Source of the DNA: a virus
IMG/VR virus record: IMGVR_UViG_3300027816_002663
Span: 1 to 26,182 of that record
Strand: one strand, 5' to 3'
DNA length: 26,182 bases
Made by a program: the position numbers and the translations under genes. The notes under the pieces are model-generated. The model saw nothing but the letters and a program-made list of their open reading frames with translations, did no database searches and had not been told where the DNA came from. Within the stretch, counting starts at the first letter, position 1; every line of letters starts with the position of its first letter. Shown here piece by piece: positions 4,673 to 26,182 of this stretch.

Positions 4673-4761
4673 GGAGGATTGGCTGAGTGGTTTAAAGCAG
4701 CGGATTGCTAATCCGTCGATGTCTTTAGGGGCATCCATTGGTTCAAATCCAATATCCTCCG
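4673..4761 (+). tRNA. tRNA-Ser (GCU)
   Basis: This is a class II tRNA with acceptor stem GGAGGAT/ATCCTCC, anticodon stem CGGAT..ATCCG around GCT, a long variable arm and discriminator G4761. It starts two bases after a stop codon. Confidence 0.95.
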
Positions 4762-4764
4762 TTT

Positions 4765-4849
4765 GGAAAGGTGGCCGAGTGGTTTAAGGCAACTGTCTTG
4801 AAAACAGTCGATGTGAAAGCATCCGGAGGTTCGAATCCTCTCCTTTCCG
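4765..4849 (+). tRNA. tRNA-Ser (UGA)
   Basis: This is a class II tRNA with acceptor stem GGAAAGG/CCTTTCC, anticodon stem ACTGT..ACAGT around TGA, a long variable arm and discriminator G4849. With GGA and GCU it makes three serine acceptors in the window. Confidence 0.95.
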
Positions 4850-9023: not shown

Positions 9024-9179
9024 ATGGAATCCCACACCAATTTGATTTTTAGATTCGTAGAGTTTGTACTAAATAATACCATAACACTTTTTATCATTGG
9101 TGTGGGCTTGACAATCGTTCCTGCACTGGGTATAATGTATGTACATTCACCAAAGGATGATAAGAGTAACGGGCATTAG
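9024..9179 (+). CDS. Small membrane protein (51 aa)
   Basis: The ATG at 9024 opens a frame with a hydrophobic segment at about residues 19-40 (ITLFIIGVGLTIVPALGIMY) and a polar tail. The gene body contains an 11-bp inverted repeat and a perfect consensus promoter, and its last 10 bases lie inside tRNA-Pro. Those overlaps mean either that coding and regulatory signals are superimposed or that the frame is fortuitous. The membrane-like pattern makes coding plausible. Confidence 0.4.
   Translation: MESHTNLIFRFVEFVLNNTITLFIIGVGLTIVPALGIMYVHSPKDDKSNGH
9031..9106 (+). repeat. 11-bp perfect inverted repeat before a promoter
   Basis: CCCACACCAAT (9031-9041) is the exact reverse complement of ATTGGTGTGGG (9096-9106). 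The right arm ends one base before a TTGACA box. Confidence 0.7.
9108..9136 (+). promoter_or_regulatory. Perfect consensus early promoter
   Basis: TTGACA (9108-9113), exactly 17 bases, TATAAT (9131-9136). It lies within the reading frame 9024-9179 and would start transcription about 27 bases before tRNA-Pro. Confidence 0.85.
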
Positions 9180-9243
9180 CGCAGTTTGGTAGCGCGCCTG
9201 CTTTGGGAGCAGGATGTCGGGGGTTCAAATCCCTCATGCCCGA
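9170..9243 (+). tRNA. tRNA-Pro (UGG)
   Basis: The acceptor stem CGGGCAT pairs with ATGCCCG, and the anticodon stem CCTGC..GCAGG encloses TTTGGGA, giving UGG. The discriminator is A9243. Confidence 0.95.
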
Positions 9244-9262
9244 CTTAATAAATACACAAAAA

Positions 9263-9430
9263 ATGCAAGTTTACACTGTGGAAGAATTTCAAGAACGTTG
9301 GGAAGAAATGATTGCAAGAGTGGAAGGCGGAGAAAATATAGGGATAACTAATGGTAGAAATACTTGTGTAATGATTCCTGCGGATGATGAACTCATACGC
9401 ATTTACACCGAGCATAACGAAGCCTCGTAA
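9263..9430 (+). CDS. Phd/YefM-type antitoxin-like protein (55 aa)
   Basis: The short protein begins MQVYTVEEFQERWEEMIARV and continues with GGENIGITNGRNTCVMIP. This is the pattern of the N-terminal DNA-binding fold of Phd/YefM antitoxins: a first strand, an amphipathic helix, then the GE-x-I-x-I-x-N-G-R strand pair. The C-terminal toxin-binding region is very short. No toxin gene lies beside it. The neighbours are tRNA-Pro and tRNA-Met. It may neutralise a host toxin or simply regulate transcription (inference). An AATAAATA late-like box at 9247-9254 is very close to the ATG at 9263. Upstream in-frame starts would lie in the tRNA and are rejected. Confidence 0.7.
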   Translation: MQVYTVEEFQERWEEMIARVEGGENIGITNGRNTCVMIPADDELIRIYTEHNEAS

Positions 9431-9438
9431 AATTATTT

Positions 9439-9511
9439 GCTCGATTAGCTATCTGGTGAAAGCGCCCGACTCATAATCGGATATAGGTGGGTTCGATCCC
9501 CTCATCGAGCA
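9439..9511 (+). tRNA. tRNA with CAU anticodon (Met, or Ile2)
   Basis: The acceptor stem GCTCGAT pairs with ATCGAGC, and the anticodon stem CCGAC..ATCGG encloses TCATA, giving CAU. The first acceptor pair is G-C and the D and T arms are regular, so it is not an initiator with an unpaired end. Elongator Met and lysidine-modified Ile2 cannot be separated by eye. The discriminator is A9511. Confidence 0.88.
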
Positions 9512-10346: not shown

Positions 10347-10436
10347 ATGACCTCCTATGTCCTCGTCGGATTGGACATTAAATATGCCGACTGGTGTGGA
10401 TGGGGAAACCCCGCCGAGTTTCTTGTTTTCTCGTAA
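10347..10436 (+). CDS. Tiny hypothetical protein (29 aa)
   Basis: The ATG at 10347 has GGAG six bases upstream and the frame ends in TAA at 10434-10436. The peptide is MTSYVLVGLDIKYADWCGWG followed by a short hydrophobic tail. It is supported by a good ribosome binding site only. The frame ends inside the loop of a hairpin. Confidence 0.45.
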   Translation: MTSYVLVGLDIKYADWCGWGNPAEFLVFS

Positions 10437-10446
10437 TCAAAACAAG
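10422..10446 (+). other. Perfect 8-bp hairpin near the end of the transcript
   Basis: CTTGTTTT (10422-10429) pairs with AAAACAAG (10439-10446). CGCC before it and GGCG after it could extend the stem across an internal loop. Confidence 0.5.
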
Positions 10447-10467
10447 TGGCGAGCCTGAGTTACACGG

Positions 10468-11151: not shown

Positions 11152-12210
11152 ATGAGTCAATATATCAAGAAGGCACTTGTTCTTGGTGCTGGTGGCTTTA
11201 TCGGAAGTCATATGGTTCGCAGATTGCGTTCCGAAGGATACTGGGTTCGTGGCGTAGACCTAAAGTATCCAGAGTTTTCTGCACATGAAGCTAACGAATT
11301 TATTCGTGGAGATCTTCGTGATGTGGAATTTGTTCGTCGTGTCCTAGAATATAAAGGAGATAGAGGTAACTTTTATAACTCTGTTCCTCATCGTTACATC
11401 CAACCTTTTGATGAGATTTATCAGTTTGCTGCTGATATGGGTGGTGCTGGATTTGTTTTCACTGGTGAAAATGATGCAGACATCATGCACAACTCAGTTA
11501 CTATCAATCTGAACGTTCTTGAGATGCAACGTCAGATGAATGAGAAGGTTGGAAAAAATACTACTAAGATTTTCTATTCTGGATCTGCGTGTATGTATCC
11601 AGAACACAATCAACTAGATCCAGATAATCCAGATTGCCGTGAAGAGTCCGCATACCCAGCTAATCCAGACTCCGAGTATGGTTGGGAAAAACTATTCTCG
11701 GAACGTCTCTACTTTGCCTATCATCGCAATTATGGTATTCCAGTTCGCGTTACTCGTTACCACAATATTTTCGGACCAGAAGGAACCTGGGAAGGTGGAA
11801 GAGAAAAAGCACCTGCAGCAATCTGCCGTAAAGTTGCCTACCTTCCAGAGAAAGGTGGAGCCATCGAGGTGTGGGGAGATGGCCTACAAACTCGTTCCTT
11901 CTTGTACATTGATGAATGCATCGAAGCATCCAGGAGATTGATGGATTCCGATTTTATTGGACCTGTGAATATTGGTTCAGAAGAAATGGTTACCATTAAT
12001 CAACTTGTAGATACTGCTGCTAGGGTTTCGGGTAAGGATGTCCAGAAAATTCACATTGATGGTCCTCTGGGTGTTCGTGGACGTAATTCTAACAACGATG
12101 TAATCCGCAAAGAACTTGGTTGGGATTATCAACAAACTCTTGAAGAAGGTATTCGTAAGACATATAATTGGATTTCTGAACAAATTGCTAAAAAGAACAA
12201 TGAAAATTGA
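11152..12210 (+). CDS. gme: GDP-mannose 3,5-epimerase
   Basis: The enzyme converts GDP-D-mannose to GDP-L-galactose (and GDP-L-gulose). This 352-residue extended SDR protein has GAGGFIG (12-18), AADMGGAGF (93-101), SGSACMYP (143-150), GTWEGGREKAPAA (211-223), WGDGLQTRSF (241-250) and GVRGRNSNN (307-315), all hallmarks of plant GME. Cys147, Tyr176, Lys180 and Lys219 align at a constant offset of two with the catalytic Cys145, Tyr174, Lys178 and Lys217 of the Arabidopsis enzyme as I recall them, so activity is likely. There is no clear ribosome binding site. It is the first gene of the operon and overlaps the next gene by 11 bases. Confidence 0.88.
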   Translation: MSQYIKKALVLGAGGFIGSHMVRRLRSEGYWVRGVDLKYPEFSAHEANEFIRGDLRDVEFVRRVLEYKGDRGNFYNSVPHRYIQPFDEIYQFAADMGGAGFVFTGENDADIMHNSVTINLNVLEMQRQMNEKVGKNTTKIFYSGSACMYPEHNQLDPDNPDCREESAYPANPDSEYGWEKLFSERLYFAYHRNYGIPVRVTRYHNIFGPEGTWEGGREKAPAAICRKVAYLPEKGGAIEVWGDGLQTRSFLYIDECIEASRRLMDSDFIGPVNIGSEEMVTINQLVDTAARVSGKDVQKIHIDGPLGVRGRNSNNDVIRKELGWDYQQTLEEGIRKTYNWISEQIAKKNNEN

Positions 12211-24006: not shown

Positions 24007-24055
24007 GGTATCGCATGATACCAAGGGGGGGTGCTTGACACCCCTTTCTTTTTCC
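24007..24055 (+). terminator. Porin terminator with preceding hairpin
   Basis: GGTATC/GATACC (24007-24012/24017-24022) is followed by GGGGTG/CACCCC (24028-24033/24039-24044) and a T-rich tract to 24055. The second hairpin is a good intrinsic terminator. Confidence 0.85.
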
Positions 24056-24063
24056 TATATAAT
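24035..24063 (+). promoter_or_regulatory. Perfect consensus promoter overlapping the porin terminator
   Basis: TTGACA (24035-24040), 17 bases, TATAAT (24058-24063). The -35 box lies in the loop and 3' arm of the terminator hairpin. It drives hli and the genes after it. Confidence 0.85.
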
Positions 24064-25631: not shown

Positions 25632-25667
25632 GCCTCTCCCCCCGCAAGGGGGATTTTTTTGAGGCTC
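25630..25667 (+). terminator. Terminator with nested stems after the peroxiredoxin gene
   Basis: CCCCC (25639-25643) pairs with GGGGG (25648-25652) around GCAA, followed by seven T. An outer stem GAGCCTC/GAGGCTC (25630-25636/25661-25667) encloses the whole, and its 3' arm touches the psbA -35 box. Confidence 0.9.
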
Positions 25668-25701
25668 TTGACAAGGACGATAACCTGTAGTATTATAAAT
25701 A
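25668..25701 (+). promoter_or_regulatory. psbA promoter, early and late boxes overlapping
   Basis: TTGACA (25668-25673), 17 bases, TATTAT (25691-25696) is a strong early promoter. TATAAATA at 25694-25701 matches the T4-type late box and shares three bases with the early -10 box. psbA could thus be transcribed in both phases. Confidence 0.75.
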
Positions 25702-25711
25702 GGTAAACAAA

Positions 25712-25875
25712 TGTTACGAAACTTTAATGTTATGTAACACATTCATGGAGAAAAGGGACTAACCTCCTTACCGAGACTATCCATGTAAAATATGTCTCTC
25801 ATACCCAGTCTTAGGGTGACTGGGAAATAGTAACTCCACCATTTCCCTGATGGTCTTACTAACTTTTTTAAAAAA
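25712..25875 (+). promoter_or_regulatory. Structured psbA leader
   Basis: About 165 bases of leader hold several inverted repeats: TGTTAC/GTAACA (25712-25717/25734-25739), CATGGA/TCCATG (25744-25749/25780-25785), GAGAC/GTCTC (25773-25777/25794-25798), CCCAGT/ACTGGG (25804-25809/25819-25824) and GGGAAAT/ATTTCCC (25822-25828/25841-25847). The last two share GGG and cannot form together. TTTTTTAAAAAA touches the start codon and no Shine-Dalgarno sequence is visible. The tiny frame MEKRD at 25745-25762 is probably incidental. Confidence 0.55.
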
Positions 25876-26182
25876 ATGACTGCTTCAATTGCACAACAAC
25901 GACAATCGAATACTTGGGAACAGTTTTGCAACTGGGTAACTTCAACCGATAACCGCATCTATGTTGGGTGGTTCGGTGTTCTGATGATTCCTTGCCTACT
26001 TGCTGCTACAACTTGTTTCATCATCGCATTTATCGGTGCTCCCCCAGTGGACATTGATGGAATCCGTGAACCCGTTGCTGGTTCACTCATGTACGGAAAC
26101 AACATCATCTCTGGTGCTGTGATTCCTTCGTCCAATGCTATTGGACTGCACTTTTACCCCATCTGGGAAGCTGCTTCCCTAG
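25876..26182 (+). CDS. psbA: Photosystem II D1 protein, N-terminal part (partial)
   Basis: D1 is the reaction-centre protein that turns over fastest under light; phage copies keep photosynthesis running in infection. The visible 102 residues, from [20 protein letters not shown] on, are typical, with the first membrane helix (about 30-55) and the lumenal segment leading to [13 protein letters not shown]. The frame is open to the right edge of the window, so the Q_B region, C-terminus and any intron cannot be judged. It follows a dual promoter and a structured leader. Confidence 0.98.

Follow-up and report, generated by a model that had tools for sequence, protein, structure and literature searches.

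The window analysed here, the whole stretch from positions 1 to 26,182 of virus record IMGVR_UViG_3300027816_002663, is a 26 kb fragment related to Synechococcus phages at both the DNA and the protein level, and its source is a T4-like cyanophage. Rfam matches within it comprise 18 tRNA genes, a wcaG RNA and a PhotoRC-II RNA, and the right end holds genes of porin-like and high-light-inducible type together with ferredoxin, peroxiredoxin and psbA. The features are as follows:

183-2180, 4673-4849 and 9170-9511, + strand: set of 18 tRNA genes (Rfam), all in one 26 kb stretch
10357-10460, + strand: wcaG RNA (RF01761), 62.2 bits
22513-23988, + strand: phage-borne OprB-type porin with SLH domain
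24035-24063, + strand: sigma70-type promoter with perfect hexamers (TTGACA-N17-TATAAT), ahead of the high-light-inducible-type gene
25635-25653, + strand: hairpin resembling an intrinsic terminator, with T tail, between the peroxiredoxin gene and psbA
25668-25673, + strand: sigma70 -35 element TTGACA, read directly from the sequence, its fixed spacing kept in relatives
25674-25690, + strand: 17-base spacer (N17)
25691-25696, + strand: sigma70 -10 element TATTAT, read directly from the sequence
25694-25701, + strand: T4-type late (gp55) box TATAAATA, on the psbA strand
25702-25707, + strand: starts predicted from promoter geometry (sigma70 about 25703, gp55 about 25707)
25710-25741, + strand: conserved 5' leader hairpin
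25735-25838, + strand: PhotoRC-II RNA element (RF01717), psbA 5' UTR
25876-26181, + strand: psbA (photosystem II D1), Pfam PF00124, running past the window end

The wcaG RNA is a structured RNA of phage or marine origin, mostly tied to exopolysaccharide or high-light genes; 3' of it lies an ORF on the minus strand, followed by a gene of sugar-epimerase type at 11152. The OprB-type porin resembles those of cyanobacterial outer membranes, and the promoter before the high-light-inducible-type gene overlaps a terminator-like hairpin and is without a late box. Because the hairpin at 25635-25653 stands between the peroxiredoxin gene and psbA, the latter should have its own transcript. The leader of psbA has a folding z of -3.05, and its PhotoRC-II element scores 54.3 bits with the covariance model against a gathering score of 39, placing it in this family; PhotoRC-II (Weinberg et al. 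2010, PMC2864571) is a downstream RNA element, distinct from the promoter. In the 5' hairpin, the pairing of which was defined by hand from single-sequence folds, partner columns are paired in 87% of cells, as against 31-47% with the partner displaced by 1-3 columns; RNAalifold, run on the same leader, did not predict this hairpin.

The original prediction held that a sigma70-type promoter and a late box share bases in front of psbA, and the -35 element, the N17 spacer, the -10 element and the overlapping late box were all found at exactly the positions given, 25668-25701, with psbA beginning 174 bases downstream. TTGACA-N17-TATTAT matches sigma70 at 11 of 12 positions, with the hexamers within the 16-18 bases that define this promoter type. 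The late box TATAAATA, which shares TAT (25694-25696) with the -10 element, fits the late-promoter consensus NATAAATA (PMC2984593) and has the correct orientation for a T4-type late promoter of psbA. The arrangement is thus the composite described by Puxty et al. 2018, in which a Gp55 site lies within the sigma70 -10 upstream of psbA. The late box of T4 sits at -13 to -6 (PMC1524935), on which the predicted gp55 start rests, and a sigma70 start would be expected about 7 bases past the -10.

Motif counts within the window give no convincing excess over chance: over the last 6.2 kb, 15 sigma70-like sites compare with 15.9 in shuffles, and the window holds 4 copies of TATAAATA with 1.84 expected, a number reached by 12 of 100 shuffles and hence not convincingly above chance. 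The -35/-10 pair or TATAAATA, taken alone, is weak evidence, and comparison with relatives was therefore used in place of single-motif counting. For this purpose, the 80 viral contigs nearest to the window in PsbA were taken, a choice that over-represents one part of the diversity, and 77 of them had sufficient upstream sequence. Promoter sites were chosen by sigma70 score, so that part of the hexamer conservation follows from the selection itself; AAATA played no part in the choice.

In the window and in all 77 relatives, a TTGAC-type -35 (TTGCC in one) precedes a TANNNT -10 by 17 or 18 bases, and AAATA adjoins the -10 in nearly all of the relatives. After similar spacers were removed, 47 non-redundant psbA promoters were left, and AAATA lies directly 3' of the -10 in 45 of these, compared with 2.3% for TANNNT sites in general within these loci; exact ATAAATA in register is present in 41. 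The register is fixed across the window and the 77 relatives although the spacer sequence varies, and the fourth position of the -10 is free to vary, as NATAAATA permits. An extended -10 feature is also seen, with T three bases upstream of the -10 in 43 of the 47, followed by G in 31, and right behind AAATA at least two alternative sequences are seen (GGTAAAC or CATCAAC). Collection-wide pattern scans served for spacing only: among the matches listed for TTGACA-N18-22-TATAAATA, 11 of the 12 before psbA or an outer-membrane-protein-like gene have N20, the spacing of the window, and 110 of 137 stand before other genes. Judged by its recurrence in the same register at the psbA of almost every close relative, the composite promoter is more than a product of chance.

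The composite is found at 0 of 33 picocyanobacterial host psbA loci, and AAATA follows the best -10 in only 3 of 78 other cyanobacterial psbA loci; inheritance of the promoter along with the host gene was rejected, as these 33 and 78 loci hold no such conserved composite. This agrees with Puxty et al. 2018 (PMC5931967), who found no psbA motif in common with hosts. At the psbA loci of seven T7-like phages, both the composite and any late-type box within 300 bases were absent (0/7 each), and a gp55 gene sought in the same seven genomes was likewise not found (0/7). All nine of the named T4-like relatives that were tested possess gp55, as do two of six related viral contigs, and six of the nine (P-SSM5, MED4-213, S-RSM4, S-CAM1, DSL-LC03 and Syn9) carry the composite at psbA. 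The other three gp55-positive phages, P-SSM7, P-SSM3 and ACG-2014f, have no overlapping late box there: the first two retain the sigma70 part alone, and in ACG-2014f the late box is located further downstream. Dual reading is therefore not obligatory. In S-TIM5, neither composite nor gp55 was detected, and in four viral contigs that carry the composite no match to gp55 turned up, a result that is uninformative where contigs are fragments. Likewise, gp55 was not found in the 26 kb window, itself a genome fragment, and is presumed from the relatives.

On the + strand of the complete Syn9 genome, a matching -35 accompanies one of 37 NATAAATA sites, namely that of psbA, so that the composite as a general late-promoter feature was rejected for this phage; a reversed-sequence control is uninformative for such counts, since ATAAATA reads identically backwards. 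Across 23 records, 18 composites were found, mainly upstream of psbA. Of the remainder, three contigs have it before psbD and two records before an outer-membrane-protein-like gene; it also precedes a small ORF, and one contig with a psbA composite has a second site. The psbD examples lie 21 bases upstream of the gene on the - strand, near position 1500 of each of the three viral contigs, and carry GTTAA repeats in the spacer; the small outer-membrane-protein-like gene is that of P-SSM5 and one viral contig. As these psbD and outer-membrane examples differ in spacer and leader, the combination appears to have been selected rather than simply inherited with psbA. In the contig with two sites, the second composite and a psbA-like leader start lie about 1.2 kb from the psbA composite, with another ORF after them; this may be a psbA leader that was duplicated or interrupted.

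Sigma70 promoters do not require AAATA. T4 late promoters, for their part, consist of the 8-base box only and show no -35 conservation (PMC2988020). Because neither polymerase needs the part that serves the other, and both parts are conserved, two readers are indicated, and the -35/-10 part and the AAATA part look separately selected. Cyanomyoviruses are without alt, modA and modB and have homologues of g33, g55 and g45 (PMC2984593), from which it follows that the late reader would be host core polymerase with phage gp55. The original prediction had named a late-modified polymerase; a late reader stands, and 'modified' is imprecise for phages without alt, modA and modB (PMC2984593, PMC2988020).

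From these observations we infer the use of both elements, the timing of each and the start sites. Early in infection, host RNA polymerase with its main sigma would read TTGACA-N17-TATTAT, and once gp55 is made, host core polymerase with gp55, gp33 and the gp45 clamp would read TATAAATA at the same place, the predicted late start lying about 4 bases downstream of the early one. Both starts would give a near-identical leader of about 170 bases with the 5' hairpin and PhotoRC-II RNA, and psbA, as its own unit behind a terminator, would be transcribed from early through late infection. The best explanation, a likely one, is a promoter shared by sigma70 and gp55 that would drive psbA from the early into the late phase, its two starts some 4 bases from each other. 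The early and late reading originally proposed finds its support in comparison and literature, namely the fixed register, the absence of the composite from hosts and from phages without gp55, and the publication on S-PM2d.

Several other readings were weighed. The overlap may instead act in middle mode, with no clear early or late character, as was suggested for RB49 and S-PM2 genes that have both promoter types in phages lacking MotA; overlapping early and late promoters have been described as a middle-mode device in a review (PMC2984593), and in the P-HM2 time course psbA and other auxiliary genes fall in the middle expression cluster (PMC5082946). However, the S-PM2 genes of this kind that were tested showed no middle profile (PMC2984593), and expression like that in P-HM2 could be obtained from overlapping early and late promoters too. 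This reading, which differs from the shared promoter mostly in timing, where sequence cannot tell the two apart, is rather unlikely.

Less probable still is that the sigma70 promoter works alone, gp55 being unused and AAATA being an AT-rich discriminator or a conserved leader start. AT-rich discriminators do aid promoter opening, the leader just 3' of AAATA is conserved too, and P-SSM7 and P-SSM3 have just the sigma70 part. Yet AAATA is nearly fixed while the next bases vary between at least two forms, it is missing from hosts and from phages without gp55, and the same composite precedes the unrelated psbD and outer-membrane-protein-like genes. As for the late box working alone with a coincidental -35/-10 match, the 8-base box does suffice for gp55 promoters (PMC2988020), but TTGAC is kept 17-18 bases before the -10 in relatives although a late promoter has no need of it, which makes this reading very improbable.

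The observation of overlapping sigma70 and gp55 elements before psbA is correct, and the arrangement is widespread and already known, having appeared in print for related viruses in 2018. Puxty et al. 2018 (PMC5931967) described upstream motifs of cyanomyovirus psbA that hold a sigma70 -35, a -10 and a Gp55 site in the -10, concluded that S-PM2d retains motifs for early and late psbA expression, and described a hairpin in its psbA leader. The window shares with S-PM2d and other cyanomyovirus psbA loci the Gp55 site inside the -10, the long psbA upstream region and the leader hairpin; it differs in being from another phage and in its truncated psbA, so that any psbA intron or antisense RNA would lie beyond view. 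Overlapping early and late promoters had been proposed earlier still for RB49 and S-PM2 (PMC2984593), where, as here, both elements overlap upstream of one gene in MotA-less phages, but theirs stand at homologues of T4 middle genes whereas that of the window stands at a host-derived photosynthesis gene. Given the 2018 publication, the window is one more example plus controls rather than a discovery, and what it adds is small: controls from hosts and T7-like phages, a register seen to be fixed, and composites upstream of psbD and the outer-membrane-protein-like gene.

Tentatively, and with somewhat less than even probability, the composite may form a promoter class that T4-like cyanophages reserve for a small number of host-interaction genes; it would have arisen more than once and would give these genes expression in both phases, structural genes having the late box only. 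Phage-made D1 is thought to help sustain photosystem II in infected cells, and how psbA is kept on as infection passes from early to late matters for phage yield and ocean carbon flow. A conserved 34-base element potentially common to two sigma factors would offer a simple test of that switch.
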